From positions 1 to 48,890 of IMG/VR virus record IMGVR_UViG_3300034109_000594: a stretch of 48,890 nucleotides of DNA. One strand, written 5' to 3'. This DNA is from a virus. The translations under genes and the position numbers were made by a program. Shown here in pieces: positions 25,286 to 41,029 of this stretch. Below the pieces are notes generated by a model that had not been told where the DNA came from, made no database searches, and worked only from the letters and a program-made list of their open reading frames with translations. Positions within the stretch are counted from its first letter, which is position 1; each line of letters starts with the position of its first letter.

Positions 25286-26109
25286 GCGGTGATGTCGGCG
25301 CAGTCAGTGAGAGGCAGGCTGACGACGTCGGCGTCTCGGTCGTCTCCCGCCAGCACGTACGTCTCGCGGCGCTGGAAGTCGATCGACGACGACCCCATCT
25401 CCGCGTTGGTCAGGTACACGATCTTCTTGAGGTCGACGGTGAGATCGTCTGCGTCCTTCGAGCCAAGGAGGAACCCGGACTTGCGGGTGCAGATGACCTG
25501 CGAGTCGTCGACCTTGATGTCGGTGATGACTTCGACCTCTTCGCCGATGGGCTGCAAGAAGTACTGAAGCGACCCGGCCGTGTACCGGACGCGGAGCAGG
25601 TCCGACCTCTGCGACAGAATCTGGAGAGGCCGCCCGTCCAGCCGGTTGTTCCCGAAGACCGCCACGAACCCCGGAGAGCCGTACCCGCGCAAGCCAACTC
25701 GTGCCGTCGTGGGGCCGACCGCGCTCACGTCGATGTACGGGCCGGGGACGATCGAGGTGATCTCGTCCCACGAGCCCTCGCGCCGGGTGGGCCGGAACTG
25801 CTTGCGGGGCTGCTGCGGCTCAACCTCCTCGGGCTGGTTCCTCTTCCGCTTCTTCTCCTCCTTCTCCTCCTCGCGCTTCGGCGGCTTCCGGCGCACGTCC
25901 GGAGGGTCCATCCGCGGGAACCTGTACTTCCGCAGCGGCGGAGTGACGAAGCGGTAGTCGGGCGGTGTGTAGTCGAACGACACGGGGCCGCGATGCACGA
26001 GCGGGGCCGCGCAGTTGGCGATGGCGTGCATCGTGTCGTTGGCGGACAGTGGCGACTGCCCGCCCTCGATGAGCGACTGCTCGATGCGACCGGACTGCTT
26101 GGTGAACAT
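25282..26109 (-). CDS. Putative tail-associated protein, 275 aa
   Basis: ATG 26109 shares a base with the stop of the upstream tail gene. Residues about 65-110 are a Lys/Glu/Arg/Pro-rich linker (KREEEKEEKKRKRNQPEEVE). Residues about 115-275 are beta-rich (SIVPGPYIDVSAVGPTTARV, then VAVFGNNRLDGRPLQILSQRS, then SGFLLGSKDADDLTVDLKKI), which would suit a virion structural domain. No enzyme motif was seen. It sits between the tail protein and the cysteine-rich protein and may connect the two. Confidence 0.55.
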   Translation of the reverse strand: MFTKQSGRIEQSLIEGGQSPLSANDTMHAIANCAAPLVHRGPVSFDYTPPDYRFVTPPLRKYRFPRMDPPDVRRKPPKREEEKEEKKRKRNQPEEVEPQQPRKQFRPTRREGSWDEITSIVPGPYIDVSAVGPTTARVGLRGYGSPGFVAVFGNNRLDGRPLQILSQRSDLLRVRYTAGSLQYFLQPIGEEVEVITDIKVDDSQVICTRKSGFLLGSKDADDLTVDLKKIVYLTNAEMGSSSIDFQRRETYVLAGDDRDADVVSLPLTDCADITA

Positions 26110-28562
26110 CAGGCGACCCCGTACACGTCGAGCGCGTGGATGACGAATGGCCCCGAGTCGGTGCGGTCCGCCGACAACTCCACGGCGACATGCCGGTCGT
26201 TCCCTCGGAAGTCGTCGATGGTCTGCGAGGTGAACAGGGCGCGGCACACGCCGGAGGAGACGCGGTCGGGGAGCAGGCTGGCGTCCATATCGATGGCGGT
26301 GACGGGCTCCTGCGTCTCGTAGCGCTCGCCCGTGCCACGATCCCGGGCGGCCACGTTGATCCGCGGGTACGGCGAGTTGTTGTAGAACAGCCTCAACTTC
26401 ATGGGGCACGGCCCCTGCGTCGGCGTGAACAGCATGGCGACGTTGCGGTGCGTGTCCCGCTGCTCGACGGGCATGGAGTCGTGCGGGTACTCCATGTTGC
26501 CGGTGCGGACCCAGCACGGCACCGGGGTCTTCCCGTCAGCGGCCCGGCATGTGCCGGTGGCCTGCTCGCCGGACTCGGGAGGCTCGATCTCGATCTCGGG
26601 GTCGGTGTATCCGTACCCGCCGCAGCGCACGTACAGCCCGAGCAGCGACCCGTCCGTCCCGACGGCCGCCTCGACCACGGCGCCTGCGCCGTCCCCGGTG
26701 ACGGTCACCTTGGGCGGTCGGCGGTATCCGCTGCCCGGCTCGATCAACTTGGCCTCGACGATCGTGCCGTCGGCCCGGTCGAAGTCGCCGGTGCCCAGCG
26801 CGAGGATGTCCCCATCGCTCGTGCCGTAGACGCACTGGACCGAGCCCGACTCGTCCCGCATGTTCGCTCCGCCCACGAGCGGGGATGCGTAGCGCTCCTC
26901 CCACCAGCCTTGGAACTCGAACGAGTAGCAGTACTGCCGCGTGGGGTAGTCGCCGGGCGAATCGCCCTTGAGGCGCACCGAGATTCGCAGGCACCGGGCC
27001 GAGCGGTCGGCGACGACGGAGAACCACTGCGACTTGGAGAAGTCGATGTCCTCTTGGAAGAGCGTGTTCATCACCGTCGAGATCGGGCGCACGTCCCCCG
27101 ACAGGTCCATGGCGTACACGCCCTCGTTGTCCATGCAGAAGATCGTGCCCTGATACTCGTCCCAGCAGCGCTGGTTCAGGCAGCCCCGGTATGCGGCGAT
27201 CTGCACGTTGGCGTCGATGATCGGCTGAGACACGTACGAGAGCCGGTGGGCGTGACGCGACTGCATGATCCCGAGCGAGGCGCCGTACGGGATCAGCGCC
27301 GTGATGTGGTCGTGCCCTCGCACGTTGGTCTGAAGTACCAACTCGTTGACGTCCGGGCAGGACTCGGGCTCGTTGTACTCGGAGAACCGCAGCACGTTCG
27401 GCTCGCTTCCGCTGGTGTCGACGGCCATCCAGAGGCGGTCCTGATACACGACTGCCACCGCCTTGTCGGACGGCGGCACGCCGAATCGGTTGGCGTTGAG
27501 TTCGCCGTTCGGCAGGAGGATCGGCATGGCCGCGTACCCGTCCCGCTCGTAGTCCGTCAACTCCATGTCCGTCATGTCCTCGACGAACGAGGTGGCGTCT
27601 GGCGGAAGAGTGGCGACCCGGTAGGCAGTATACGCCTGATCACTCGTGGTGCGCCAGAGTTCGATCGCGACGGCCCGGGGCGAGACGACCGGCGGCAGGC
27701 CCCATTCCAGTTGTCCAACGCCGTCCCCGGCATCGATGGTGGCGACCGGGGAGAGGTTCGAGGGCAGGGGGCCGCCGCGGCTCTCTGGCGTGTCGTCGAT
27801 GACCCGGTAGTAGCAGTCGTACTTGCCGCGGATGTGGGCGCGCATGATCGCGTTGGCGATGGCGCCGCCCGTCACGGCCTCGGCCTTCGGCGGGTCGGTG
27901 AAGCCACCGCCATCGGGAATCTTCGGGTCCCCGACTCCGCCGCCCGGTAGCGGCTTCACCGTCACCCGGCCGCCGCCGCCGTTGCCGCCGTACAGCCTGA
28001 CCTCGGGCGGCACCGTGTAGCCGCTGCCGCCCACCACGGTAACGGACTCGACCGGATAGTAGTACCGCCTGTCCGGCGTCTGCGTGATCGGCCTGTCGTA
28101 GCCGATCGGGATCGGGCTCAAGATGGGCGTGATCGTGGCGCCGTCGCCGTGCGTGGCGCCGAGTTTCACGATCGGCGTGTCCGTGTACCCGCGCCCGTAG
28201 TCGACGACGTCGACGCTGCCGACGGCCGAGCCTTCGAGGAAAGCCCGCAGGGTTGCGGCGCGCGCTGGCGGCTTCGTGCCGTGATCGAGAGTGACGTCCG
28301 GCGCCTTGTTGTACCCGGCTCCACCCTCGATGACGTCCACCCGGGCGACGTAGTACTTCGGCGCGCCCGACATAGTGACGGTGGGCGCGGACGCCGGGGC
28401 ATCGACCCCCATGTCCACGACCATGTCAGCCGTCACCGAGCCGGTGCCGGAGATGTCTACGCGGACAGGGCGGTTCCCGTTCCCTTGGAACAGGTAGCCC
28501 CACTGCCTCGGTCCGACGGCCAGCGTGGCTGGCGTGTTGCTGGCGACAGTGCGCAGTAGCAT
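26109..28562 (-). CDS. Tail tubular/stabilisation protein B-like, 817 aa
   Basis: ATG 28562 follows GAGGGATAC and is chosen over an upstream start at 28613. The protein has two parts. Residues about 75-230 carry GxGY units (EGGAGYNKAPDV, YGRGYTDTPIV, GGSGYTVPPEV), with two more near the C-terminal third (PGSGYRRPPKV, CGGYGYTDPEI). The rest is a beta-propeller-like body typical of podovirus tail tube proteins: DRLWMAVDTSG, VRGHDHITALIPYG, SLGIMQSRHAHRLSY, DNEGVYAMDLSG. Such proteins form the short tail nozzle. The usual N-terminal start of the family seems to be on the separate small gene just upstream. Confidence 0.7.
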   Translation of the reverse strand: MLLRTVASNTPATLAVGPRQWGYLFQGNGNRPVRVDISGTGSVTADMVVDMGVDAPASAPTVTMSGAPKYYVARVDVIEGGAGYNKAPDVTLDHGTKPPARAATLRAFLEGSAVGSVDVVDYGRGYTDTPIVKLGATHGDGATITPILSPIPIGYDRPITQTPDRRYYYPVESVTVVGGSGYTVPPEVRLYGGNGGGGRVTVKPLPGGGVGDPKIPDGGGFTDPPKAEAVTGGAIANAIMRAHIRGKYDCYYRVIDDTPESRGGPLPSNLSPVATIDAGDGVGQLEWGLPPVVSPRAVAIELWRTTSDQAYTAYRVATLPPDATSFVEDMTDMELTDYERDGYAAMPILLPNGELNANRFGVPPSDKAVAVVYQDRLWMAVDTSGSEPNVLRFSEYNEPESCPDVNELVLQTNVRGHDHITALIPYGASLGIMQSRHAHRLSYVSQPIIDANVQIAAYRGCLNQRCWDEYQGTIFCMDNEGVYAMDLSGDVRPISTVMNTLFQEDIDFSKSQWFSVVADRSARCLRISVRLKGDSPGDYPTRQYCYSFEFQGWWEERYASPLVGGANMRDESGSVQCVYGTSDGDILALGTGDFDRADGTIVEAKLIEPGSGYRRPPKVTVTGDGAGAVVEAAVGTDGSLLGLYVRCGGYGYTDPEIEIEPPESGEQATGTCRAADGKTPVPCWVRTGNMEYPHDSMPVEQRDTHRNVAMLFTPTQGPCPMKLRLFYNNSPYPRINVAARDRGTGERYETQEPVTAIDMDASLLPDRVSSGVCRALFTSQTIDDFRGNDRHVAVELSADRTDSGPFVIHALDVYGVA

Positions 28563-28569
28563 GTATCCC

Positions 28570-28845
28570 TCACACCGTGACCCCGTCCACGATCGCCAGA
28601 TTCCCCTCGGCATCCATCACGAGGGCCCTGTCCGGCTTGCCAATCCCGCCGGAGAAAGGGAACACCTGCTCGACCACGCCCTCCAGCCCTGACTTGTCGT
28701 ACTTCACCGGGGCCGATCCGCGGCGGCTAGTGAGTTGCCCGGGGATGGCGAGCGTCATGTTGACCTGCTGCTGCATCCCACCCGGCGGAATGGCGTACGG
28801 GCTGGCAGCGAGCACCAGTCCGCCGAACTTTGAGATGCGCAGCAC
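28570..28845 (-). CDS. Small protein like the N-terminus of a tail tube protein
   Basis: The 91-residue product reads FGGLVLAASPYAIPPGGMQQ, then QVNMTLAIPGQLTSRRG, which resembles the first segment of podovirus tail tube proteins ('..N.....PG.L..R.G'). It ends with a beta-rich part containing FPFSGGIGKPDRALVMDAEG. It stops 7 bases before the large tail protein starts, in another frame. So either a tail gene was split in two, or this is a separate adaptor. It begins with ATG 28845 two bases after the upstream gene. Confidence 0.6.
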   Translation of the reverse strand: MLRISKFGGLVLAASPYAIPPGGMQQQVNMTLAIPGQLTSRRGSAPVKYDKSGLEGVVEQVFPFSGGIGKPDRALVMDAEGNLAIVDGVTV

Positions 28846-28847
28846 GG

Positions 28848-29807
28848 TCAGGCCCCGCCGTCAGGGCCGAGCGGTGCGGTGTACACGCCAGCGTACGGCG
28901 CCTGCGTGGCATCGGGCACCCGATCGTACGGCGCTCGGCGGCCGGAGATGGGCGCGATGACGTCTTGCTCCATGGCGAGTTTCAGGTCGCGGGTGTACAG
29001 CGCGACCGCGGCGTCGATGGGCTTGCCGGTCATGCGGGCGACCCACACCTCGGCGCCGGTGAGGACCGCCGTGAACATCCCCGGCGACACGTCGAGGAGG
29101 TCGGAGATCACGAAGCGGCAGTCCGCGTGCGTGGCGTCCATGGGGTTCTCAAGCGTCAGGCTCGCGGGCCCGCCACGCAGTTCGATACGGCTCTGCTCCG
29201 CGTACGGGTAGAAGCCCGACAGCGGCTCGGGATGGTTCTGCGGCGTGCCGACACGGAGCACCGCGCCGACGCAGCGCCCCGGGAAGTTCGTGTTGGTGCC
29301 CGTCACCGAGGTGCCGTTGACCGTGACGAAGCCGGTGCGGACCTGCGTCTCGTAGCCCATCAGCGTCAGGGGCTTCGGGCGACGGCGGTACGTGTACCGC
29401 AGCGTCATGCCCGCGGGCAGTCGGCCGCCGATCTTGAGTTCCCAGCGGTCGAAGTTCTTCGGGTCCGTGGACTTGGTGATCGTCCAGTACAGGGCCTCGC
29501 CGAGCGTCCACGAGTCCTGCTCGCGGCGCACCCACTCGGCGGGGGTGATGTACGCGGTGATCGTCGTGCGATCCTGCGGGATCAGCGCGTCGATGTTCAC
29601 GCAGTCGACGGGCAGCAGGTACGTGTTCTTGTTGGCGTCGATCGTGACCTCGGACTCCGAGACGTACCACAGCCAGTCCTTGGCGTGGGCCACGTCGCGG
29701 TAGGAGTGATGCACGGCAGCGCGCAGGACGCGGTGCTCTTGGTCTTGGGCGCCGCCGCCCACGGACTGCATCAGGTAGTCGATCGCGTCTTGCGCGCAGT
29801 AGTACAT
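28848..29807 (-). CDS. Head-tail connector / tail tubular protein A-like
   Basis: ATG 29807 follows GGAAGGCTGAC; a longer frame to 29831 has no better ribosome site. The 319-residue protein has an N-terminal helix (AQDAIDYLMQSVGGGAQDQE), then DVAHAKDWLWYVSES, and a beta-rich middle (NTYLLPVDCVNIDALIPQD, then PAGMTLRYTYRRRPKPLTLM). A late helical part holds DLLDVSPGMFTAVLTGAEV and DAAVALYTRDLKLAMEQDV. This order (helix, beta region, late helix pair) is that of podovirus connector/gatekeeper proteins that sit under the portal. Confidence 0.65.
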   Translation of the reverse strand: MYYCAQDAIDYLMQSVGGGAQDQEHRVLRAAVHHSYRDVAHAKDWLWYVSESEVTIDANKNTYLLPVDCVNIDALIPQDRTTITAYITPAEWVRREQDSWTLGEALYWTITKSTDPKNFDRWELKIGGRLPAGMTLRYTYRRRPKPLTLMGYETQVRTGFVTVNGTSVTGTNTNFPGRCVGAVLRVGTPQNHPEPLSGFYPYAEQSRIELRGGPASLTLENPMDATHADCRFVISDLLDVSPGMFTAVLTGAEVWVARMTGKPIDAAVALYTRDLKLAMEQDVIAPISGRRAPYDRVPDATQAPYAGVYTAPLGPDGGA

Positions 29808-29808
29808 G

Positions 29809-30015
29809 TCAGCCTTCCTTCGGTCGCACACCGGCCAGACGATCCTTGGCGAACTGGATCACCTCGGGCGTCCAGTGCTGGGCGGCCATGTCCTTCACGG
29901 CTTGCGGGGCATCGTCGGGGAGCGGGCGGGCGGGGTGGTAGTTGCGAGCCCACAGACTGCCGCCACGGTCCTCGATCACGCCGATGGTCATGTTCTTTTG
30001 GAGGGTGACGTTCAT
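29809..30015 (-). CDS. Small hypothetical protein, 68 aa
   Basis: ATG 30015 overlaps the stop of the fibre gene upstream, and the stop lies one base before the connector start. The protein has a strand-like start (VTLQKNMTIGVIEDRGGSLW) and a helix (DDAPQAVKDMAAQHWTPEVI). It could be a small structural or assembly protein. No motif was recognised. Confidence 0.55.
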   Translation of the reverse strand: MNVTLQKNMTIGVIEDRGGSLWARNYHPARPLPDDAPQAVKDMAAQHWTPEVIQFAKDRLAGVRPKEG

Positions 30016-30530
30016 CCGATCCTCGCATCGTCGGTGAGGTAGGTGATGTTGATGCAGGCGCGACCCGAATCGGTCTTCTTGTCTATCACCGCGGCGATGG
30101 CTTCGCCGTCGCCGACGCCAAGCATAGAGGCCAAACCGATGACGCCTTCCGCTGGTTCTACTGACATCACAGGCGCGGCAAAAGCGGCACTCTGAGAAGA
30201 GAGGTTCGCGTCGTAGAACTCCGCACAAGAGAACGGCAGGCCCGAAAATGCGTAGTAGATCGGCGCATCGCCTTCGTCTCTATTATCTGTCCCGAACGTA
30301 ATCGTGAGCGTCACTGCACGGCCAGCCCGAGTCCAGTATCCATCGACTTCAAACGTGCCGTTGAAGGCAGGCGTCCACACCCCGCTGAACTGCGTGTCGC
30401 CCTTCAGCACCAGCAGCCCATCGCTGCCGACCGTGAGGATGTTGCCCGCGTCTTTGCTCGGCTCCGACGGGCCGGGTGGCCCCTTGAGGGATTGCCACCC
30501 GGACCCGTCATGGATGTAGGCGTTCTTCAC
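30012..30530 (-). CDS. Tail fibre-like protein, 172 aa
   Basis: GTG 30530 follows GAGGAGTGACCCG. The N-terminus MKNAYIHDGSGWQSLKGPPG shares its pattern with the next three fibre genes (a short strand, a Gly/Ser turn and a Trp) and runs into a short collagen-like piece. The C-terminal domain (FSGVWTPAFNGTFEVDGYW, then TRAGRAVTLTITF) matches the beta-rich head seen in many phage fibre tips. Likely a trimeric adhesin or fibre on the virion. Confidence 0.7.
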   Translation of the reverse strand: MKNAYIHDGSGWQSLKGPPGPSEPSKDAGNILTVGSDGLLVLKGDTQFSGVWTPAFNGTFEVDGYWTRAGRAVTLTITFGTDNRDEGDAPIYYAFSGLPFSCAEFYDANLSSQSAAFAAPVMSVEPAEGVIGLASMLGVGDGEAIAAVIDKKTDSGRACINITYLTDDARIG

Positions 30531-30534
30531 CGGG

Positions 30535-31182
30535 TCACTCCTCGATCCAGAAGTCCCCGATGGCAGCCGTAGCGGGCTGGGTCGGGCTCTTGGTCACGTT
30601 CACCGAACGGCCATCGGCACCGTCGGCACCAGTTGCACCAGCGGCACCGTCCGCTCCGTCCGACCCCTTCTTGGCGATCACGGTCAGGTTGTCAGGGGTG
30701 ATGACAGCGGCACGGGTCAGCCCTTCGACGATGTAGGTCTCGCCTCCGAACGTGACGATGTCGTTGTTGTCGTACTCCTGATTCGGGTCGAACTCGCCCC
30801 GGAAGTTCAGGCTGACGCCGTCCTTGCCAGCGGCACCGTCGGCACCCGGGGCACCGGCGGCACCGTCCTGACCGGGAGCCCCATCAGCACCGGGGGCACC
30901 ATCGGAACCCTTGGGGCCACGGATGCCGCCGACGTTGTTCCACGCCGTGCCGCTCCAGACGAGGCCGTCGCCGGGGTTCGTGCCAGCCGGGAAGCCAGCC
31001 GGAACCGGATCGGGGACGAGCCACATATCGCCCGTGGTCGGAGCAGCATCCGGCGGGTAGGCGGCGGCGGTGCCCTTGATGGTGACGCCCGAACCGTCCT
31101 TGCCGTCCACGCCGTCCTTGCCAGCGGGGCCGACGATGGAGACCCACGCGCTACCGTCGAAGATGCTGACGTTCTTTGCCAT
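30535..31182 (-). CDS. Collagen-like tail fibre protein, 215 aa
   Basis: The protein starts with KNVSIFDGSAWVSIVGPAGK, continues with two Gly-X-Y runs (GPKGSDGAPGADGAPGQDG and GSDGADGAAGATGADGADG), and between them has a small domain NFRGEFDPNQEYDNNDIVTF resembling carbohydrate-binding CBM5/12-like modules. It ends SVNVTKSPTQPATAAIGDFW, a tail shared with the next gene. Collagen-like runs form trimeric stalks in phage fibres. ATG 31182 lies 11 bases before the neighbouring gene's end. Confidence 0.75.
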   Translation of the reverse strand: MAKNVSIFDGSAWVSIVGPAGKDGVDGKDGSGVTIKGTAAAYPPDAAPTTGDMWLVPDPVPAGFPAGTNPGDGLVWSGTAWNNVGGIRGPKGSDGAPGADGAPGQDGAAGAPGADGAAGKDGVSLNFRGEFDPNQEYDNNDIVTFGGETYIVEGLTRAAVITPDNLTVIAKKGSDGADGAAGATGADGADGRSVNVTKSPTQPATAAIGDFWIEE

Positions 31183-31193
31183 CGCTCTTTACC

Positions 31194-31391
31194 TCAAGGG
31201 GTGTTGCTGATCCATACGTCTCCAGCCTTTGCCGTCGCGGGCTGGGTGTTCTGCACGTTGACTGCGACCGACTCACCGGGGTCGCCCTTGTCACCCTTGT
31301 CCCCCTTGGGTCCGGGCGCACCTCCACCGCTCCCACTGCTTATGGGTTCCCACTTTCCCGTCGCGGCGTTGAAGTAGTAGATGACTGCCAT
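31194..31391 (-). CDS. Short collagen-like fibre protein, 65 aa
   Basis: This is a miniature of its neighbours: N-terminal MAVIYYFNAATGKWEPIS docking-type segment, then PGPKGDKGDKGDPGES (collagen triplets), then VNVQNTQPATAKAGDVWISN, which matches the end of the 215-residue fibre. It lacks any further domain, so it may be a truncated duplicate or a stub adhesin. The start codon and spacing (ATG 31391) are normal. Confidence 0.65.
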   Translation of the reverse strand: MAVIYYFNAATGKWEPISSGSGGGAPGPKGDKGDKGDPGESVAVNVQNTQPATAKAGDVWISNTP

Positions 31392-31394
31392 GGT

Positions 31395-33167
31395 TCAATC
31401 CATCTGGCGGAAGACGGCCACGACGCCTTCAAAGTTGGTCGGATACTGGCCCCACGTCCCGCCGAAGCAAATCTCCGGCACGAAGTTGGCACTGGCAATG
31501 TCTTGGTCGGCCTCGAACTCCACCGCGTAGTCGATGATGTCTTCTGCCGAGGCCCAATCGTCAACGGCGAGGAAGCGGAAGCGGTCTGCCCTCGTCGGCG
31601 TCGTGGTTGCCACAGCCGTGGCGGCGATGGCGGCACGGGCGCGGGTGACCGTGGTGTGACCGAACCCGCCCATCGTGACCAGCGGCTGCTTCGTGCAGGG
31701 CAGTTCGTTGAGGGCCTTGTAGTTGAATCGGAAGCCGACCCAGCACTCCTTGTAGTCGGCGTTGAGCGGCCCGAACTTCGTGGTCATCTCCAGCCGGTAT
31801 CGCTTGCCCTTCACGATCTGGATAGACGGGATGAGCCCCGCCGCGAACCACTTGTCCTTCGCGTTCCCCGCTGGCATCTTCTGAAAAGCACCGCCCCACT
31901 GGAGGTACTTCATCGGGGAAGGGACTTCCAGCAGCCTCGTCTCGACCTCGGCCTTGGTGTAGGTCTCGGTCTTCTTGTAGGTTTCCGCCGCAAAGGCATA
32001 CACGCCGTTCACATCGACGAGCGTGAGGAACTTCCCGTCAGCCTCGGCCTTGGTGTAGGTCGTGGCCTTGGGCGTGTAGTTGGCCTCGACGAATGCGGCA
32101 ACGTCTGCGGTCTTGGCGTAAACCATCAGGGTCGTGGCTACGTCAACAGCCTTGGCGTACCCCGAGAGATCGACAGCGGGGGCCGACTTGCTTTCCAGCG
32201 TCTCGATGCGTGGCAGGAGGGCGTTGAGCGGTTCGAGGTCGGACTTGTAGACGAGGAACTCGTTGTTGAGTCCGACGTTCAGGACGAGCCGGGCTCCGTA
32301 GCCCTCGCCCGTGTCCGTGTACCCGAGAGCGACAGGTGGCAGCAACGTGTCGCCAAACCCGTAAGCCTGCGACACGACGGTCTTGGCGAGGAGCGGCTGC
32401 TGGTTGTCCTGCAACTTGGCGTAGGCCGAGAGGTCAACCGAGCCGCCGCCGACCTCGGTGGTGAAGGCCAGCGGGAACGTCTTACTGCCGGACTTGTAGA
32501 CAGGGCGAGCCGTGCCGCCAACGTCTTCCCAAGACAGTGCCGCGTTGGCGTTGAACTCGTGGCGCAGGGCGCGGACCACCGCGGCGGAGATGACTTGCGT
32601 GTCGTCGTCCTTGAGGGCATAGCCCGTCAGGTCTTGGGGTCCACCTCCCGTAAGGGAGAAGAGGTCCGTCACCTGCGGGGCGCCGAACGGCACGTCCCCC
32701 TTGGTGCTGGTCATCTTGGCCCACTGGCCGCCCATCGTCGCCACGATCTCGGAGTTGGCATTCGCCTGCGCCCCGTCCACGGTCGTGGTGGTGATGCGGA
32801 TGTAGGTCGAGCCCGTGCCGTTGACGAACACGGTGGCCGTCAGGGACTCCGACGAGGTCGGCTTCTCTCCGTTCGGCGTGTTGGTCGTGCCCGTCATGGA
32901 GTTCTTGGACAGCAGCACCATGTTCCGCTGGGGGCCGCCCTTGAACAGGTGGAGCCCCGGCTCATAGCCAGCCCACGCCTGAAGAATCTGGAGCGGGGTC
33001 GAGCCCGGAGAGACCTGCGGCAGTTCGGCGTCATGCTCGGTGACGTTGGATGCGGCAACGACCTTGCCGTCCACGTACTCGATGGTGGCGTACTGCGACA
33101 GATCGGCAGCCCCGGAGCCGCCGACTTCAACCCACTGGCCGTTGCTGTGAACGTGGAGAGTCTTCAT
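31395..33167 (-). CDS. Tail fibre protein, 590 aa
   Basis: It opens MKTLHVHSNGQWVEVGGSG, the same docking-type N-terminus as the other fibres. The stalk contains repeated VDLSxYAK and YTKAEVExRL units (for example VDLSGYAKAVDVAT and YTKAEADGKF), typical of triple beta-helix and coiled stalks. The last 170 residues (from about MKYLQWGGAFQKMPAG) form a distinct beta-rich domain ending GGTWGQYPTNFEGVVAVFRQ, probably the receptor-binding tip. No lyase or hydrolase motif was seen. Size suits a main fibre. Confidence 0.75.
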   Translation of the reverse strand: MKTLHVHSNGQWVEVGGSGAADLSQYATIEYVDGKVVAASNVTEHDAELPQVSPGSTPLQILQAWAGYEPGLHLFKGGPQRNMVLLSKNSMTGTTNTPNGEKPTSSESLTATVFVNGTGSTYIRITTTTVDGAQANANSEIVATMGGQWAKMTSTKGDVPFGAPQVTDLFSLTGGGPQDLTGYALKDDDTQVISAAVVRALRHEFNANAALSWEDVGGTARPVYKSGSKTFPLAFTTEVGGGSVDLSAYAKLQDNQQPLLAKTVVSQAYGFGDTLLPPVALGYTDTGEGYGARLVLNVGLNNEFLVYKSDLEPLNALLPRIETLESKSAPAVDLSGYAKAVDVATTLMVYAKTADVAAFVEANYTPKATTYTKAEADGKFLTLVDVNGVYAFAAETYKKTETYTKAEVETRLLEVPSPMKYLQWGGAFQKMPAGNAKDKWFAAGLIPSIQIVKGKRYRLEMTTKFGPLNADYKECWVGFRFNYKALNELPCTKQPLVTMGGFGHTTVTRARAAIAATAVATTTPTRADRFRFLAVDDWASAEDIIDYAVEFEADQDIASANFVPEICFGGTWGQYPTNFEGVVAVFRQMD

Positions 33168-33169
33168 AG

Positions 33170-34261
33170 TCAGTAGGCGTATGCCTGTGCCCCGTTGAAG
33201 GAGGTTCCGGTGATCTTGGCGTCCCCGCAGATTGCAATGCCGCCGTCAGGCTGAAATCGCACGAACACGCGACGGTATGCCACGCCGGTTTCAAAGCCGA
33301 ACACCACCACGGTCTGCTCGACGGGCGGTTTCGGGAAGTTGGCCGGGAGCCGCTGCACAGTCGAGAACGAGCCGGTGGCGGTCAAGGTGTAGGCCAACTC
33401 GCCACGCAGTTGGATCATGCCGTTCAGGACTCGGGCTTCGATCAGCCCGGAGCCCAAAACCTTCGTGCAGGCAGTCCAGTCAATGTCTGGCGGGACAGTC
33501 TTGCCGCCCGCCATCAGGGATCGGACGAGTTTTGCCACATGGGCGTCGAGGTCCTTCGTGTCGGCCTTGGTGACGAGAGCGGAAATCTCCACTGCCTTCG
33601 CCACCGGGGTGGACAGCCACAGGTCTCCGTCCTTGCCCGTGGGCTGGCCGTCCTGCTCGTAGACAGCCGGGAGGTCTTCGGCCTTGGCGTAGCCGTCGAG
33701 GTCGACAGTCCCGCCGGTCGCCACGCTGGCGAGAGCCTCGTCCACTTCCGCCTTGGTGTACGTCGTGGCCTTGTCGGCCTTGAGGTCGATCTTCTCTTGC
33801 GTCTGCTTGCCGGTCTCCTCGATGGCAAACACCAACTGACTCTGGACGGCGTCGAGGTCGAGAGCCGACTGCTCCGCCGCTGCCTTGATGGCGGCATCCG
33901 TCTCGGGCTTCGTGTAGTAGTCGTCGAGGTTGGCCGGAGGAATGGCCGCAATGGCGTCCGTGACGAACTGCTCGGTGGCGTAGCCGTTTAGGTCAACAGT
34001 CCCGCCCGTGACCACCCCCGCGATGGCCGCCGTAATGGCCGCATCCACCTCGGCCTTGGAGTACAGCGTGGCGATCTGACCGTCCACGTAGGCGGTCGTG
34101 GCGTAGGCAGACAGGTCTACGGTCTGGAGCCCGCCGCCGGTCGGCAGCGCAGCCAGCAGGGCATCCACCTCGGCATCGGAATAGTAGCCGACGATCCCCT
34201 TGGCCGGGTTGATCGCGCTGGCGAAGTTCTGGTGCGGAGTCGGCCGGTCAGGTGCGGGCAT
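33170..34261 (-). CDS. Tail fibre protein, 363 aa
   Basis: The stalk holds several SKAEVD/TKAEVD units (YSDAEVDALL, YSKAEVDAAI, YTKPETDAAI, YTKAEVDEAL) and VDLxxYA units, the same modules as in the 590-residue fibre. A late part (GSGLIEARVLNGMIQLRGEL, then STVQRLPANFPKPP) is a fibre-tip domain seen in phage fibres that bind host surfaces. The N-terminus differs from the docking motif of its neighbours, starting with a Pro-rich segment. It may form a second fibre type or a distal piece of a composite fibre. Confidence 0.7.
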   Translation of the reverse strand: MPAPDRPTPHQNFASAINPAKGIVGYYSDAEVDALLAALPTGGGLQTVDLSAYATTAYVDGQIATLYSKAEVDAAITAAIAGVVTGGTVDLNGYATEQFVTDAIAAIPPANLDDYYTKPETDAAIKAAAEQSALDLDAVQSQLVFAIEETGKQTQEKIDLKADKATTYTKAEVDEALASVATGGTVDLDGYAKAEDLPAVYEQDGQPTGKDGDLWLSTPVAKAVEISALVTKADTKDLDAHVAKLVRSLMAGGKTVPPDIDWTACTKVLGSGLIEARVLNGMIQLRGELAYTLTATGSFSTVQRLPANFPKPPVEQTVVVFGFETGVAYRRVFVRFQPDGGIAICGDAKITGTSFNGAQAYAY

Positions 34262-34264
34262 GGT

Positions 34265-35197
34265 TCACTCTGCGATGAGGGGCAGGAGGTAGCGCTTGCC
34301 GTTCACGATGATCGGAATGCCGCCAACGATGTCGGGCTGGTAGAAGTTCAGCCCGTCCGGCGCAAGGCCAATCGGCTGGCCGCTTGACTGCACCGTCGTG
34401 ATGTCGTCGGCAAACGTGAGCACCGGGTCGCGCAGAGCGGCTGCCGCTGGCGACTCGATCAGCGGCAGCATGTACGTCTTGCCGTTCACCCGGATCGGCA
34501 CAGCGCCGACGATGTCCGGCTGATGGAAGGTGAGGCCGTCCGGCGAGAGACCGATCGGCAGGCCGTTGGCCTGCTCGGTCAGCATCGAGTCGGAGTACAC
34601 GGGCGGGTTCGCGTTCGTGTACTCGCCCGTGACGGGCGGCACGGGGCCGCCGTTCGGGTCCACCCAAATGGCGCCGCCGCCGGTTGGGGCGGGCGGCTCG
34701 GTGTCCGAGATCAGCACGGGCTCGGCGAAGTACCAGCCGGTGCTCGGGTCGAGGTCGGACCGCAGGTAGCCGTCGCCCGTCGGGGTCGGCATCTGGTAGC
34801 CCGGGCTGGTCATCTTGCCGTCGCGGGCAAGAAGGACGCCGTACCACAGTTCTCCGAACGCGCCGCCGTTGGCGATGACGTTGCCGTTGCCGAACACGTC
34901 GCCGGAGTTCCAGTCGGGCGAGGTGGCCTGCACCCGGGCGAACGTGACGTCGGTGTCCTTGAAGGCTGCCTTGAGGACCATCTGCTCCGCCCAAGTCTGG
35001 ACGGGCATCGCGGGGTCCTCGGGCAATCCGACGGGGTTGCCGACCGTGTTGATCGTGCCGCTCGGCACGTTTGCCAGCGCGAGGTCGACGAGTTGCTTGA
35101 CCGTCACTCGCTGCGTGGTGCCGCCGTTGACGACCGGGATGAGGCCGGTCGGCTGGGCGGTGCCCGCGGGCAGTGCGGAGATGCGAACGTCAGCCAC
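34265..35197 (-). CDS. Tail fibre/baseplate-like protein, 310 aa
   Basis: GTG 35197 follows GGAGGTGCTGG. The N-terminal part VRISALPAGTAQPTGLIPVV is a common start of virion adaptor proteins that hold fibres. The middle is Gly/Pro-rich with WYFAEPVLISDTEPP. The C-terminus has a 61-residue unit in two copies (PIGLSPDGLTFHQPDIVG and PIGLAPDGLNFYQPDIVG, each ending with GK(T/R)YxLPLI). Such doubled beta units are frequent in fibre adaptors. It is probably the fibre base that the following genes attach to (inference). Confidence 0.65.
   Translation of the reverse strand: MADVRISALPAGTAQPTGLIPVVNGGTTQRVTVKQLVDLALANVPSGTINTVGNPVGLPEDPAMPVQTWAEQMVLKAAFKDTDVTFARVQATSPDWNSGDVFGNGNVIANGGAFGELWYGVLLARDGKMTSPGYQMPTPTGDGYLRSDLDPSTGWYFAEPVLISDTEPPAPTGGGAIWVDPNGGPVPPVTGEYTNANPPVYSDSMLTEQANGLPIGLSPDGLTFHQPDIVGAVPIRVNGKTYMLPLIESPAAAALRDPVLTFADDITTVQSSGQPIGLAPDGLNFYQPDIVGGIPIIVNGKRYLLPLIAE
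34280..34572 (-). repeat. 183-bp-spaced internal duplication
   Basis: Two units of about 110 bases, starting near 34280 and 34463, encode the PIGLxPDGLxFxQPDIVG segment. The DNA is clearly related (for example GCCGTTCAC, then GATCGG, then CGATGTC(G/C)GGCTG and GCCGTCCGGCG) but diverged at third positions, so the duplication is not recent. Confidence 0.65.
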
Positions 35198-35816
35198 CCA
35201 GCACCTCCGCGAAGTTGGCTAAGACTTCAAACTTCTCGCGTGCCGATTCGCTGACCTCGTCTCCCTTGCGGACGTTATCGCCGTGCCACATGGGCTGGAG
35301 GTTCCTCCAGTTGCAGACCGCCAGAAGTTGGGCCCGGTCGGTCAGGTCTGCTTGCGAGCACGGGTAGTCGTGGTCGATGCTCCATCGTCCATCGCCGACG
35401 CCGCGGTTGTTCCATGTCATCCCGGGCTGGAACTGCGACTCGATGTGGGCCTTGAGGTCGTCGACTGTGCAGCCGAGGTCACGGATGGCGGAGCCTGTCT
35501 TCTGCCCGTTCTTGACGGCGGAACACAGCCGGGAACGCAGCGAGCAGGCAACCGAGAAGGAGAGGTCGCCCCGCCGCCTCGCCTTGCTGCGTTCACGCCG
35601 CCGCTCCTTGGAGGCCGGGCTGGCGTATGAGCCGGAAGCCTTCTTCCTGTCCGGGTGCCGCGCGCGATACCTCGACTGGGCAGGCGCGAGCGCGTCGAGG
35701 TGCGCAGCCCACCGCTCGGGCGTGGCCTGCGCCTTCCGGGCCCAAAAAACGCACGGAGTCACCTTCCCCCGAAGGGCGGCGACCTGCTCGTCGAATGTTG
35801 GTGCGTCGGGGGTCAT
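35190..35816 (-). CDS. HNH endonuclease, probable homing type
   Basis: The 208-residue protein has an N-terminal basic, DNA-binding-like half (TPERWAAHLDALAPAQSRYR, ERRRERSKARRR). Its C-terminal His-Me-finger region reads RWSIDHDYPCSQADLTDRAQ, then CNWRNLQPMWHGDNVRKGDE. The H of IDH, the N of RNLQ and the final N..K give the HNH layout of free-standing phage nucleases. It sits between fibre and head-neck genes without an evident structural role, as homing endonuclease genes often do. It overlaps the next gene's start by 8 bases. Confidence 0.75.
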   Translation of the reverse strand: MTPDAPTFDEQVAALRGKVTPCVFWARKAQATPERWAAHLDALAPAQSRYRARHPDRKKASGSYASPASKERRRERSKARRRGDLSFSVACSLRSRLCSAVKNGQKTGSAIRDLGCTVDDLKAHIESQFQPGMTWNNRGVGDGRWSIDHDYPCSQADLTDRAQLLAVCNWRNLQPMWHGDNVRKGDEVSESAREKFEVLANFAEVLGG

Positions 35817-36345: not shown

Positions 36346-36894
36346 TCACTTGCCCTTGCGCTTCCAGTGCGGCGTGTGCTTGTCCCGAACGCGCTGCTCC
36401 GCGGCCGTTCTCGTCAGGCCGGGCTCGGCTGCCATCTCTTTCCGGGCCAGTTCGCGGACGAGTTTCGGGTTGAGCCCAGCGGCCCGCTGGGGCGGGGCAA
36501 CGCCCTCGGGCGGCGTGTAGTTCACCTGCCCGCGGACCTCCAGCCGACGCTTCTTGGCGACCCGGAGGAGATCGTCCTTGCCGCTGATCCATGCCTGCGG
36601 ATCGAGGTGCGCCCGGGAGTCCGCGATCCCGCCGTGGTAGTAGCGGCCCTCGGTCGAGATGCCAGCCTTCTTGGCCTCCCGCAGCATCCACTGGGCCTGC
36701 CGCTTGGGAATCTTGTCGAGCCACTCGGCGTTCTTGCGGCCCTGCATGAACGAGTCGTCCGTGCCGTGGACGCCCGGCGCGATCTGGAGCGCGCACATCT
36801 CGGCGAACCGCGGCGTCTGGCCGTCGGCGATCATCTTCCGGTAGTGCGCCTGCGCCTCGGGCGAAGCGGACGCGATCTCAAACGGGAGGTCCAT
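36346..36894 (-). CDS. Hypothetical protein, 182 aa
   Basis: ATG 36894 overlaps the end of the portal gene. The product has helical parts (EAQAHYRKMIADGQTPRFAE) and a segment DSFMQGRKNAEWLDKIPKRQ, then QWMLREAKKAGISTEGRYYHG, then a basic end (NPKLVRELARKEM, HWKRKGK). It might bind DNA or assist head assembly. It follows the portal gene, where phages often place head-completion or small DNA-associated proteins. No family recognised. Confidence 0.55.
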   Translation of the reverse strand: MDLPFEIASASPEAQAHYRKMIADGQTPRFAEMCALQIAPGVHGTDDSFMQGRKNAEWLDKIPKRQAQWMLREAKKAGISTEGRYYHGGIADSRAHLDPQAWISGKDDLLRVAKKRRLEVRGQVNYTPPEGVAPPQRAAGLNPKLVRELARKEMAAEPGLTRTAAEQRVRDKHTPHWKRKGK

Positions 36895-38968
36895 TCATCG
36901 GCTCCTCGGGGTTGGTCGGGGCCTCCCCGCCGCCTTCAACGCCATCCGGTGGAGGGGGGCCGGGAACTGGCGGAGGCGGCGGGGGAGGCGGGATCAGGAA
37001 GGGGGTGGCGTCGAGATCGTTGGCCTTGGCCCAAGCGTCGATCAGTGCGTTCATCGGACCGACGACCCCGGCGCCCACCAGCGGCTGGAGCAGCGGCCCA
37101 AGGGTCTGGAACGCCATCGCCATGCGGTCCATCTCCGCCTGCTTGTTGAGGCGACGGGCCGAGCCGCTCGCGATGGTGTACTCGTACTCGCGCGTGATGG
37201 ACGAGAAGTTCATCCCATCCTTGGGCGTGACGTGCATGGCCCACGCCTCGGCGCCGAGCGGACCGAGCACCGGGGACACGTCCTGCGGGCGCAGCAGCCA
37301 TCGGGCGGCCATCGCTTCCTTGCGGGCGACCCGGGACATGAAGTCCTCGAAGTTTTGGGCCATGTCGTCGGGCCGGATCGACAGGTTGTCCTGCTTGACC
37401 TGCGCCTCACTGGCCGAGCGCATCTGGTTCCGCGTGGAGCCGTACACGAGTTCGGTGAGACCGACTCGTTTGTCGAACTGCTCCGCCACGGCGGCCAAAA
37501 TGTCCCACATGTCCCGCGTCACGCCGGGGACGGCGAAGACCGAGACGATGTCGCTTACCGATCGGCCGAGCGACTCGCTGATCTCCAGCAGTTTGAAGCC
37601 GTTCTCCGACGGGGCGAGGAGTTGGCCCTTGATGTCCGAGTCCGCCGCCTTCGACACGCCGATGATCGTCTCGCACGACGTGGCGATGCGAGTCATCAGG
37701 AAGGACATTCCCCAGTTCAAGAATCGAAGTTCCCCGATCCCCGGGCGGATGTGGCTCACGGGCCAGAGCGCGTTCGGCTTGCGGTGGGGCGCGAACATCT
37801 CGAACGGCCAGCCGCCGTTGTCAGCCCACAGCGGAATGGGCCACGAGGTCCGGATGCGCAGGGACTGCGGCATGCCCTCCTCGTCGAGTTCCTCATCCAG
37901 AGCAGATGGCGGGACGTTGAGCGGGTAGTCCACGCCCTCGGCGACCACGATGTAGCAGTTGTCGCCCAGCGGATCGAACACGCCGCGGTCGCTCTTCTTG
38001 GCGTCCTTGAGGCGGTCGCCGAAGCCGCACTTGCTCCAGACCTTGTAGAAGGTCACGAGGTCGTTCGTCTTCCCGGTGCGCTTCTTGCCCGACCGGGAGT
38101 CGCCCGTCTTTTCGTCGGTGTGTCGGGACGTCGAGTCGTACGACTCCAAGTTCGCCTTGAGGTCCGCTCGCTGGAGGCCGAACATGCGAGCCGCCTGATC
38201 GATCGGGAGCACGCACTTCTTGGCGCACCATGTGATCTCCTCGATCACCTGCGCGTCCGGGTCCAGAAGCAGGTTGTCGACCGAGTCGAAGAACGATCCG
38301 ATGACGAGGGTCGGCTCGGCGGGCGGAATGTTCTGCTGCTCGACGGCCTCGGTCCACAGCACGCCGCCGCCCTTGATGAGGGCCTCGTCCACCACCTGAC
38401 GCCCATGGGAGATCAGGTTGTTCTCGATGGGCGTCCAGTTCAGGTACGCCTGCATCAACTCGGCGACCATGCGCTTCGTCTGGTCCGCTGCGTCGATCGC
38501 CTGCGAAGCCTCGATGAACTGCATGACCCGTGGGTCCGGCATCGGCTGCCCGGTCATCGGGTCGACTTGGTACGCCTCCGGGTCGACGCCCACCATCTGC
38601 GGCGGGATCACCGGGAACTTCCGCGGGGTCACAGTGCGGACCGGGTTGCGGTTGTAGATGACCGCGCCGATGAGTTTCACGACCTCCCACACGCGGTTCA
38701 CGGTGAGGCGAAACGCGGGCGCCGGGGTGGGGCGCGACATGAGGGTGAGGCCGCGGTTGCTGTTCTCGAAGAACCACCGTGGCCCGCCGTCGAAGAAGTG
38801 CATCGCCTCCTTCGCGTCCGAGTCGAACGCCGACTTGGCCTTCTTCGCAGACGAGATTTTCTTCAGCCACGCCTGCGCGATCGGCTTCAGTGGCGAGGCA
38901 GGGTTCAGGGGAGCCTGCTTGAGGTCCTCCCCGTCGCCCCTGTCCTCCTTGAGATCGTCTTCCGCCAT
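36878..38968 (-). CDS. Portal protein (P22-like)
   Basis: The 696-residue protein fits the P22-type portal. An acidic head start (EDDLKEDRGDGEDLKQ) comes first. The core holds FRLTVNRVWEVVKLIGAVIY, the 'N(R)V..VV..l.g...Nr' pattern near residue 90. Later come FYKVWSKCGFGDRLKD and VYGSTRNQMRSASEAQVKQ, the latter as in other P22-like portals. The last 30 residues are Pro/Gly-rich. Size is close to P22 gp1 (725 aa). Twelve copies form the ring through which DNA passes. Start ATG 38968 lies 10 bases past a GCCATAACGAGGGTG motif and next to GGAGGCCACGG. The terminase genes upstream confirm the context. Confidence 0.8.
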   Translation of the reverse strand: MAEDDLKEDRGDGEDLKQAPLNPASPLKPIAQAWLKKISSAKKAKSAFDSDAKEAMHFFDGGPRWFFENSNRGLTLMSRPTPAPAFRLTVNRVWEVVKLIGAVIYNRNPVRTVTPRKFPVIPPQMVGVDPEAYQVDPMTGQPMPDPRVMQFIEASQAIDAADQTKRMVAELMQAYLNWTPIENNLISHGRQVVDEALIKGGGVLWTEAVEQQNIPPAEPTLVIGSFFDSVDNLLLDPDAQVIEEITWCAKKCVLPIDQAARMFGLQRADLKANLESYDSTSRHTDEKTGDSRSGKKRTGKTNDLVTFYKVWSKCGFGDRLKDAKKSDRGVFDPLGDNCYIVVAEGVDYPLNVPPSALDEELDEEGMPQSLRIRTSWPIPLWADNGGWPFEMFAPHRKPNALWPVSHIRPGIGELRFLNWGMSFLMTRIATSCETIIGVSKAADSDIKGQLLAPSENGFKLLEISESLGRSVSDIVSVFAVPGVTRDMWDILAAVAEQFDKRVGLTELVYGSTRNQMRSASEAQVKQDNLSIRPDDMAQNFEDFMSRVARKEAMAARWLLRPQDVSPVLGPLGAEAWAMHVTPKDGMNFSSITREYEYTIASGSARRLNKQAEMDRMAMAFQTLGPLLQPLVGAGVVGPMNALIDAWAKANDLDATPFLIPPPPPPPPVPGPPPPDGVEGGGEAPTNPEEPMNGPPV

Positions 38969-38994: not shown

Positions 38995-39351
38995 TCACTC
39001 GGCCTTCTTGCTGCTCTGCTGGTTCCGGGCCAGCACGGAGACGACCTGCGGCATCATGGTCCGCAGTTTCTTCAGCGTCTCCGTTGCCGGGTGGAAGCGC
39101 CAGCAGCCCCACTGCCGCCACGCGGAGTTGTCCACGAGACCCGGATCGTCCGCGTGACGCACCGACGGCTTCTCGACGAACCCCTCGTCGGGAGAGAAGG
39201 TCAGGATGAACACCGTGTTCACGCCCGGGCGACGGGAGACCCAGCCGATCACCGGGTCCTTCTGGTTCAGGACGTTGCTGTAGAACAGCACCATGTCCCC
39301 GAGTTCCACCGTCTGCGTCGGGAAGTCAGACCCATTCGTACTGCTCGACAT
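38995..39351 (-). CDS. Small protein between terminase and portal, 118 aa
   Basis: ATG 39351 is chosen because upstream sequence only extends into the terminase gene frame. The protein shows strands (TVELGDMVLFYSNVLNQKD, VIGWVSRRPGVNTVFIL) and a late SAWRQWGCWRFHPATETLKKL helix. It may be a small terminase- or portal-linked protein. It overlaps the end of the large terminase gene by 26 bases. Similar short proteins occur at this position in other podophages; the function is unknown to me. Confidence 0.6.
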   Translation of the reverse strand: MSSSTNGSDFPTQTVELGDMVLFYSNVLNQKDPVIGWVSRRPGVNTVFILTFSPDEGFVEKPSVRHADDPGLVDNSAWRQWGCWRFHPATETLKKLRTMMPQVVSVLARNQQSSKKAE

Positions 39352-41029
39352 TCGTCGCCTCCTCGCTTGACGCCTTGGCGTCGGACTCCGGGCCCAAATA
39401 GACGCACGCACCCGCCCGGTTCTTGGTCTTGCGCGCGATGTAGTTGATTATCCACTCGGGGGTCGTATCAGACTCGTCCTTTTTCGGAGGCGATCGGTAC
39501 TTCGGCTCCGTCGCTGCCAAGTACTCCATGCACTGGCATGCATGCACCTCGCCGCGGGTGTTCGGCTCGTCGCTCACCACGGACAGCCCGTTGATGAAGT
39601 GGGTCTTCTTCCGGTAGCGCCGCAGTTCCCGCTCAAGGTTCGGGCAGGCCCCGCGCAGCACTCGGAGGCGCGGCTTGCCGTCTGGCCGGATGTGGAGCGC
39701 CGTGCGGACCGCGGAGGTCCGGGCCTGAATGTCATCGCAGCCCGCCAAGAACCCCGCCCCCGTCGTCAGGGAGCGCAGTTTGAACAGGCGCATCTGCTCC
39801 ATGTACTGCTCGACCACGGCCCGGCCGGAGCCGATGTCCGTGATCCGGCCGCCGTGCATGTCGATGATCCACTGGTAGAAGGTCTGGCCCTGCGCCTTCT
39901 CCGCGAACTTGGCACCGAAGATCGCGGCAGAGCACTGCCGGATGTACAGTTCGTCGTAGATCAGCATCATCGAGTTGTCTGGCGGGACGGCCGCGAACAG
40001 GGCGGCGGTCACTGAGTGCCCCGGGTCGATGGCGACGTAGCGGGTCCAGTCCGCGGGAACCTGCGAGTCCGGCAGGTCCTCGCGCAGGAACCCGTGGACA
40101 GACATGGCGAAGTTGGGGTAGACGAGGACGGAGTCCGTGATGAACTCGCCCTCGGCGCGCATCCGGAGCACGTCCTCGCCCTGCGCCGCCCACCGCTCCA
40201 GCATCTTGGACTTCTCGGTCGAGTCGATCCAAGCGTTGTCGAGAAAGCGCAGCGTGAACTTCTTGATGGTGGTCTCGGCGGTGCCAGCCTCCTCCGCGCG
40301 GTCGGCGCGCTCGGACAGGGACAGCAGCGACTCCGACTTCGAGTGGGGCATGGCCGACCAGACCAGCCGCCCCTTCTTGTCGGCGAGCCGGGCCTGCGCC
40401 TCGGGGAGGATGTTGTCGTTCCCGACGTCCTCGTCGATGTGGATCAGTGAGGCGGCGTAGCCTTGGGCAGGTTCCCCTTCGGCGCTGAAGAACTGAATCT
40501 TCCAGCCGTTGTGGAGTTCGATGCTGTTGCAATAGTTGCTGGACTTCAGCACCCACGAGATGGTCTTGATCATCCGCGGCGGGATCAGCGGCGGCGCGGG
40601 CTTCGCGAGGTGCTTGCGGGCCTCATCCGTGGTCGGGTTGAAGGCCCTCCACTTGTTGGTCTGCTCGTCGCGGATGATCTTGAACGCCCCGGCCTTCAGG
40701 AGGTAGGGCACTGCCACGAGCCCGATGTGGGTCCAGTTCCGGCCGATGATCACCAGCAGCCCGTCCTTCTCGGGGTACTTGCCGTAGGGGTCCTGCCCCG
40801 TGGCGGCGCGAGCGTCCTCGACGAACGTGCAGAGTGACTTTCCGGACCGATTCCCCCCGATCACGAGCGCTTCGCTGGCGCGGCATTTGTGGAACTCGTC
40901 CTGCATCGGCGAGGGCGTGTAGAGTTTCAGCGCCTCGATCCGCCGCTCGTTGATCTCGGCCTGTAGTTCCCGCAGGCGATCCTGCGCGAACTTGGATGGC
41001 CTACCCGGCGGCTTCGGTAGCGGTTGCAT
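39326..41029 (-). CDS. terL: Terminase large subunit
   Basis: The 567-residue protein has the two expected domains. In the ATPase part, VIGGNRSGKSLCTF is Walker A (about 54-67) and SLIHIDEDVGND is Walker B/adenine region (about 195). In the nuclease part, YVAIDPGHSVTAALF gives the first Asp of the RNase-H-like fold, and later DIGSGRAVVEQYMEQ and a tail of basic residues follow. It pumps DNA into the empty head and cuts it. The start ATG 41029 overlaps the upstream zinc-motif gene, which is probably the small subunit. Length is normal. Confidence 0.9.
   Translation of the reverse strand: MQPLPKPPGRPSKFAQDRLRELQAEINERRIEALKLYTPSPMQDEFHKCRASEALVIGGNRSGKSLCTFVEDARAATGQDPYGKYPEKDGLLVIIGRNWTHIGLVAVPYLLKAGAFKIIRDEQTNKWRAFNPTTDEARKHLAKPAPPLIPPRMIKTISWVLKSSNYCNSIELHNGWKIQFFSAEGEPAQGYAASLIHIDEDVGNDNILPEAQARLADKKGRLVWSAMPHSKSESLLSLSERADRAEEAGTAETTIKKFTLRFLDNAWIDSTEKSKMLERWAAQGEDVLRMRAEGEFITDSVLVYPNFAMSVHGFLREDLPDSQVPADWTRYVAIDPGHSVTAALFAAVPPDNSMMLIYDELYIRQCSAAIFGAKFAEKAQGQTFYQWIIDMHGGRITDIGSGRAVVEQYMEQMRLFKLRSLTTGAGFLAGCDDIQARTSAVRTALHIRPDGKPRLRVLRGACPNLERELRRYRKKTHFINGLSVVSDEPNTRGEVHACQCMEYLAATEPKYRSPPKKDESDTTPEWIINYIARKTKNRAGACVYLGPESDAKASSEEATNVEQYEWV

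Follow-up and report, generated by a model that had tools for sequence, protein, structure and literature searches.

Why do four consecutive fibre-type genes of one virus begin alike, and why do two of their products also end alike? The question is raised by IMG/VR virus record IMGVR_UViG_3300034109_000594, whose whole length of 48,890 bases (positions 1 to 48,890) is the window referred to here. The genes ORF590 (31395-33167), ORF65 (31194-31391), ORF215 (30535-31182) and ORF172 (30012-30530) all lie on the minus strand and are transcribed in that order. A sequence-only reading had taken their products for adhesins whose common N-terminus docks at one and the same virion site; it had located the related starts correctly and quoted their peptides without error. 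Our analysis of the locus and its relatives suggests another function, in which proteins carrying complementary parts of a split module snap end to end into a long adhesive fibre with a swappable tip.

Shared starts and ends as parts of one module

The products of ORF590, ORF65, ORF215 and ORF172 begin MKTLHVHSNGQWVEV, MAVIYYFNAATGKWEPI, MAKNVSIFDGSAWVSI and MKNAYIHDGSGWQSL, respectively, and the start motif occupies residues 1-15 of ORF590 (33123-33167), 1-17 of ORF65, 1-16 of ORF215 (31135-31182) and 1-15 of ORF172 (30486-30530). The common end reads SVAVNVQNTQPATAKAGDVWI in ORF65 (residues 41-61; 31209-31271) and SVNVTKSPTQPATAAIGDFWI in ORF215 (residues 193-213; 30544-30606), the C-terminal sequences being TQPATAKAGDVWISNTP and TQPATAAIGDFWIEE. 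That these two products share an end had also been noticed from the sequence alone, and it was recovered here: a search of the whole record with ORF215 found the end of ORF65 (E 6e-5, 47% identity over residues 172-214), and both ends score highly with the profile described below.

The key to both motifs is the middle of ORF215, GSGVTIKGTAAAYPPDAAPTTGDMWLVPDPVPAGFPAGTNPGDGLVWSGTAWNNVGGIRGPKG, which holds an intact module (residues 28-92; 30907-31101, minus strand) with predicted strands at residues 34-38, 52-55, 72-76 and 81-86. The shared ends are like its first part, GVTIKG..PPDAAPTTGDMWL, and the shared starts like its second part, GLVWSGTAWNNVGGIRGPKG; judged by this likeness, the common end corresponds to strands 1 and 2, and the common start to strands 3 and 4, of a module with four strands (hereafter its first and second halves). 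Whole modules were also found, in a scan for the ORF215 family, inside long collagen-like proteins of 649 amino acids (aa) in locus L128, 919 aa in L134, 484 aa in L135 and 1423 aa in L138, and in Vequintavirinae isolates tail fibre proteins of roughly 950-1,100 aa contain several such modules in a row. Because the start motif thus occurs inside single long fibres as the second half of the module, it does not form a separate docking domain, and the earlier assignment of all four N-termini to one virion site is not supported.

An AlphaFold2 model of the 65-residue module, built with 22 homologues, has four strands (pLDDT 88.9, pTM 0.74). The model of the whole of ORF215 is of low confidence (pLDDT 54); it shows the same four strands in the module, two short strands at the N-terminus (4-8, 13-15) and two at the C-terminus (196-199, 211-214). 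This pattern of two and two strands at the termini and four in the module suggests that the genes part between strands 1-2 and strands 3-4, and the agreement of predicted strands between module and termini argues against unrelated N-terminal folds.

To place the motifs on a statistical footing, profiles were made solely from nine internal intact module copies (from the window phage and its relatives) and scored against the first and last 28 residues of 764 called genes. These genes come from 43 lineages, each represented once at 97% identity of an adaptor-like protein (28848-29807 in the window) that is encoded just after the fibre block and served as the query for finding relatives. At 4 bits or more the second-half profile matched 33 of the 764 N-termini, against 2 of 764 shuffled ones. 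All 33 fall in the fibre block, two to seven genes before the adaptor-like gene, and N-termini of non-fibre genes gave no match at this threshold, which argues against a motif common outside fibre proteins. The first-half profile matched 11 of the 764 C-termini at 4 bits (shuffled, 3) and 7 at 7 bits (shuffled, 0), the seven including ORF65 (11.9 bits) and ORF215 (16.2 bits); in another profile scan the ORF65 end scored 9.3 bits. Among the starts in the window, ORF590 (7.8 bits) and ORF215 (6.0 bits) exceed 4 bits; since ORF172 (3.8 bits) and ORF65 (below 3 bits) score under the threshold, their membership rests on homologues, such as MANIAYWDGGEWKIIATG and MANNLYYFDGTGWQPISS for ORF65, and on inspection by eye. 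A permissive regular expression written for the starts proved uninformative, since shuffled sequences matched it too often (120 real N-termini out of 764; shuffled, 76 on average), and was set aside.

The module belongs to known company. ORF215 qualifies as a collagen-like tail fibre protein on both counts tested (Pfam Collagen PF01391, 40.4 bits, cut-off 27.2; PHROG 3904, tail fiber, E 8.9e-19), and of the 23 distinct module copies that were aligned, 22 are matched by PHROG 3904. The collagen-like tail fibres of that family (for example in Pectobacterium phage phiTE and Serratia phage ChuuTotoro, Vequintavirinae) have the same GD-x-W ... W module between Gly-x-y stretches; in Vequintavirinae whole modules lie within one protein of 953-1099 aa, whereas in the window gene boundaries cut the modules and the pieces are separate. 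The nearest curated family by sequence, at scores below the Pfam cut-off, is DUF2793 (PF10983), a family of tail fibres of alphaproteobacterial gene transfer agents, described as the RcGTA tail fibre in the part of the source consulted (PMC10883770): it matches 10 of the 23 copies at E<=0.1 (best 0.003), and both ORF215 (16.0 bits) and the excised module (13.5 bits) stay under its gathering cut-off of 27 bits. Sequence searches for a solved relative gave nothing convincing (best E 0.9, chance-like; none at E<=10 in a second search). By fold, ORF18 of Geobacillus virus E2 ranks first in the PDB over residues 3-60 (Z 5.0, Foldseek E 0.3), a match too weak to assign the module to a class, and the literature listing showed no paper on that protein; the next, chain T of 8GTC (residues 22-111, E 0.68, Z 3.5 over 62 residues), is likewise a weak likeness and by fold only. 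We read this chain as the fibre of roseophage R4C, whose knob is given as residues 36-117 in the part of the report consulted (PMC10276861). Among viral predicted proteins there were 222 fold matches at E<=10 (best E 0.003, none at E<=0.001), many of them annotated as tail fibre or collagen repeat.

Split genes, fused genes and the order of the halves

The relation between intact module and split halves can be followed among the relatives, where the module is whole in one homologue and others have two genes that part in a loop of the module. Residues 1-90 of a 265-aa protein in locus L037 (ending GDLWIEP) align with a 283-aa protein of L036, and its sequence from residue 96 aligns with a separate 117-aa protein of L036 (FRLYVWTSTGW against LKLSVWDGSKW); a 264-aa protein of L033 gives the same split match (residues 1-87 and 95-136). 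These alignments of fused and split forms imply that the start motif of the 117-aa gene is homologous to strands 3-4 of the intact module. A larger combination of parts is found in L036 and L100, where one protein (532 and 586 aa, respectively) opens with a start of the ORF65 type and also contains the tip collar PTVVSADAGN and a stalk of collagen-like sequence, as if serial parts had been fused. On an unrelated contig (L139), a 248-aa collagen-like protein (4047-4793) ends GDLYLDTTTGNVYRLA and the next gene (4800-5840) starts MAWEQIGNIQGP; this is apparently a module of the same kind with the cut elsewhere.

The order of the halves was counted over all fetched loci, at 359 distinct junctions involving a fibre-type gene. 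A first-half end stands upstream at 34 of these, followed by a second-half start in the next gene in 27 cases and after one inserted gene in 5, leaving two exceptions; at the junctions lacking an upstream first-half end, the next gene has a second-half start in 81 of 325. If the upstream gene itself starts with the motif, the corresponding figures are 24 of 29 with the end half and 28 of 84 without it, and once a single HNH-like gene is skipped in this subset, every end half is followed by a second-half start (29/29).

Lineages differ in how many such genes they hold: of the 40 in which 5 kb or more precede the adaptor-like gene, 15 have two or more motif starts (2 to 5 genes) among the nine genes before it and 25 have none or one. 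A frequent layout is a short connector, then a collagen-like stalk with an end half, then a tip. In ORF172 the start motif is followed by a conserved collar, GPPGPSEPSKDAGN..GSDG, and then by a variable tip. Across 17 recognised tips (136 pairs, by global alignment, for which background identity is above zero) median identity is 0.50 in the first 48 residues and 0.35 in the rest; 39 pairs are at least 0.6 alike in the first part, and 16 of these fall below 0.35 in the rest. The sequence-only reading is borne out in part: the four starts are related and belong to a block of fibre-type genes with strongly varying tips, and single members are gained, lost, fused and split among relatives.

A possible chain of plugs and sockets

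We tentatively propose, as a reading with somewhat less than an even chance of being right, that ORF65 and ORF215 serve as stalk pieces with a joining half at either end, that ORF172 is an exchangeable tip, and that the split module joins the three serially. ORF65 consists of both halves and a short Gly-x-y stretch between them (seen by eye; no Pfam match at E<=1) and of nothing else; because 65 aa leave no room for a tip, it looks like a connector and not an adhesin, and genes of its kind (65-69 aa) are kept in the relatives L005, L034, L114, L118 and L120. ORF215 likewise has both halves and no visible tip domain; in ORF172 a single half is combined with a variable tip. Strands 1-2 at the C-terminus of one protein would form a socket and strands 3-4 at the N-terminus of the next a plug, such that the N-terminal half of ORF215 would complete the C-terminal half of ORF65, and ORF172 in turn would complete the C-terminal half of ORF215. 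The series would run from connector (ORF65) through collagen-like stalk (ORF215) to tip (ORF172), as separate chains from closely spaced neighbouring genes, and translation from adjacent ribosome sites would suit matched amounts. ORF590, a plug with a long stalk, would form another fibre, and the plugs of ORF590 and ORF65 would seat on some other virion protein. What is observed comprises the homology of the halves to the intact module, the rule of gene order, the predicted fold of the module and the variation of the tips; from there we infer pairing of the halves between chains, trimeric chains, a fibre located on the virion and host binding by the tips. In its general form the idea is put forward with a little more reserve still: a fibre would be assembled by completing a split beta module at each joint, any plug piece could follow any socket piece, and the joint would double as the place of tip exchange, at which two endonuclease families have settled in relatives.

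Several observations weigh against the proposed chain. All predicted folds are of single chains, and ORF590 and ORF65 have the start with no socket before it, so that the motif can serve without a neighbour. The junctions share ancestry, so that their counts are not independent, and the patterns and the skip rule were written after the data were viewed; P values computed for the contrast in order therefore overstate it, and in part this contrast simply reflects the fact that tips, which lack the end half, stand last. Of the two exceptions, one is L135, where no motif follows the 484-aa protein, whose end reads QPTAPAEGSVWFQI, and the other, L098, is probably a chance match of the pattern; the end in L100, counted among the 27, is probably a false positive as well. 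The short gene lacks a first-half end in L033, L035, L037, L096, L097, L105 and L109; in the sequences inspected, among them those of L033, L035 and L037, further residues follow the first half. Finally, a profile of all 23 modules gave no match at 2 bits to the starts of ORF590, ORF65 and ORF172, and when profiles of the intact module and the ORF172 family were compared, the expected residues aligned at a score that is not significant (probability 1.4%, 14 columns).

On a rival reading the proteins each act alone, the two halves being separate beta caps that start and close collagen triple helices and have a common ancestry in the module but pair no longer. The motif often stands directly before Gly-x-y repeats, a plug stands with no socket before it in ORF590, ORF65 and the fused proteins of 532 and 586 aa, L135 has an end half and no start half after it, and capping domains are known from phage collagens (PMC3368898, in the part consulted). 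We nevertheless consider this unlikely, as it leaves unexplained why flagged first-half ends, two exceptions apart, precede second-half starts, and why a tipless 65-aa protein with both halves is kept.

Less probable again is the parallel arrangement first suggested for the locus, with four N-termini plugging into one virion site and a particle that carries a set of alternative fibres. It would account for the two to five genes per lineage that share a start in 15 of 40 lineages, for single genes that come and go, and for the seat that plugs without a preceding socket need somewhere; it does not account for similar sequence inside single fibre proteins, for an ORF65 without an adhesive part or for the conserved ends, and no virion site was found: at 3 bits the first-half profile picks out no further protein of the window. 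The least probable of the alternatives, quite unlikely in our estimate, is a circular permutation, in which the start and end halves of one protein fold together, chiefly where the linker is short (the relatives' 117- and 393-aa proteins, perhaps ORF65). In the 117-aa protein of L036 and the 393-aa protein of L037 a first-half-like stretch (EPPPPAEIGTLWIDP, EPTGVAAVGDLWIQP) does follow within about 40 residues of the start motif; in ORF215, however, about 175 residues, with collagen-like stretches and the intact module, lie between the halves, which could therefore hardly meet in one trimer without bending back.

The proposed chain of ORF65, ORF215 and ORF172 has a working parallel in the long tail fibre of T4, in which the separate products gp34, gp35, gp36 and gp37 are joined end to end (PMC5537660); the likeness lies in the working only, gene order bears indirectly on the joining of the window proteins, and the part of that source consulted does not describe the T4 junctions as halves of one module. 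The serial model would resemble it more than the branched tailspikes of Ackermannviridae, in which, according to the portion of the source seen, several receptor-binding proteins with exchangeable tips are joined by conserved N-terminal parts (XD/TD domains; PMC11414711): those spikes have Gp10-like XD domains, a family of which no member appeared in the ten proteins scanned (E<=1). The prophage collagen-like proteins EPclA-D are also alike in being collagen-like phage fibres with capping and interrupting domains (PfN, Pf2, PfC), as far as the text consulted goes (PMC3368898), and differ in being single chains; PF08400, PF03406 and PF06820 are unmatched in the same ten proteins.

The fibre block, its phage group and the split joint

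The block comprises ORF310, ORF363, ORF590, ORF65, ORF215 and ORF172, followed by a 68-aa gene, and is bounded by a 104-aa gene behind the portal gene and by the adaptor-like gene; its six fibre-type genes and the adaptor-like gene are all on the minus strand. The same strand carries recognisable genes for terminase (39326-41029), portal (36878-38968) and the major head protein (43515-44636). The first protein of the block, ORF310 (34265-35197), is a homologue of the L037 265-aa protein that holds an intact module (blastp 39% over 319 columns, 7e-59). ORF363 (33170-34261) is fibre-type, lacks the N-terminal motif, matches PHROG 5004 of unknown function (E 2e-5) and has a 404-aa homologue in L003, L005 and L009. 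The middle of ORF590 is long and stalk-like, with repeated Y-x-K-A-E/D segments, and there is no first-half end; it matches no Pfam family at E<=1 and only weakly some PHROG families of unknown function (best E 0.017), as does ORF172 (best E 0.095). With family matches this weak, the fibre role of ORF590 and ORF172 derives from gene context and shared starts. ORF215 contains, besides its module, a CBM5/12-like stretch (residues 131-151; CBM_5_12, 16.7 bits, under the cut-off of 26.2). A programmed frameshift or read-through joining ORF65, ORF215 and ORF172 was rejected from the sequence because of gaps of 11 and 4 bases, changes of frame and a Shine-Dalgarno-like GAGGAG before ORF172. This candidate ribosome-binding site (30538-30543, minus strand, read from ATCGAGGAGTGACCCGGTGAAG) is at the same time the last two codons of ORF215 (Glu-Glu), a double duty that may partly account for the conserved WIEE end.

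On the best reading, the fibre genes belong to a tailed phage, a virus of bacteria. The adaptor-like protein scores 21.5 bits with SU10_adaptor (PF24175), below the cut-off of 27 bits, so that this match does not place the phage among the SU10-like short-tailed phages. An 834-aa protein encoded after it (26109-28613) has head-closure, baseplate and virion structural PHROG matches, mostly over short repeated stretches. Relatives of the adaptor-like protein are encoded by 159 viral contigs, and neither it nor the portal protein is matched in any of 50,697 phage records; among sequenced phage records no relative was found by DNA, nor by protein for the adaptor-like protein, the portal, ORF590 or ORF215 (for ORF215 the low-complexity filter may hide some). 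A scan for the ORF172 family found 7 loci only, all within the same phage group, and the 478-aa tip of L109 has matches in only 4 phage records, none covering more than 32% of the tip. Cellular genomes encode no relative of the adaptor-like protein, and the host can therefore not be inferred from prophages.

Genes of other types occur in the block of several relatives. An endonuclease-type gene, HNH_3 (above the Pfam cut-off), stands between the collagen-like gene and the tip gene in L089 (5234-5758), L090 (5488-5874) and L105 (5616-5813), and a different HNH-like family (assigned by eye; no Pfam HNH match) occupies the same gap in L009 (7577-8314) and L116 (6897-7472); the window's member of the latter family (35190-35816) stands before ORF310. 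Directly before the ORF65-like gene, inside the block, some relatives carry a prepilin-like protein of cellular type with an N-terminal methylation motif, DUF1559 (PF07596, E down to 3e-43): L118 (4896-5864), L120 (4911-5873) and L145 (4389-5354), and also L089-L091, L119 and L121; L144 has a PEP-CTERM-like protein (weak in Pfam) at that position. DUF1559 is typical of Planctomycetota, and the gene would hint at such hosts for these phages. In a sister group (L025, 12747-13886; L029, 12896-14035) the adaptor-like gene directly follows a 182-aa gene behind the portal gene, and the entire fibre block is absent from that place.

A gap of about 60 bases before the tip gene can form a hairpin in L035 (7542-7601), L037 (7855-7913), L097 (7700-7760), L109 (5398-5459), L122 (6801-6860), L142 (6781-6842) and L145 (6481-6541). 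The seven hairpins share one shape, in which 5-7 pairs are followed by one bulged base, 3 more pairs and a 6-base loop; the stem bases vary on both sides and no run of T is present. Folding is only mildly better than in shuffled sequences (z -0.9 to -2.7), and the three loci searched match no Rfam family at gathering score.

Serial, modular tail fibres are already known, and the new element is the split joint: open-access titles and the beginnings of abstracts gave no account of fibre genes divided within a module that they share, which is weak evidence of absence, and no paper in the open-access literature was found to combine 'donor strand' with phage tail fibre. If the halves pair, they would constitute a natural plug and socket of about 20 residues each, suited to testing in vitro, and a ready-made, genetically mobile joint by which long fibres are built from short genes. 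If true, this would also explain the retention before fibre genes, in these uncultured phages, of short collagen-like genes (65 to 100 codons) that are otherwise easily taken for fragments.

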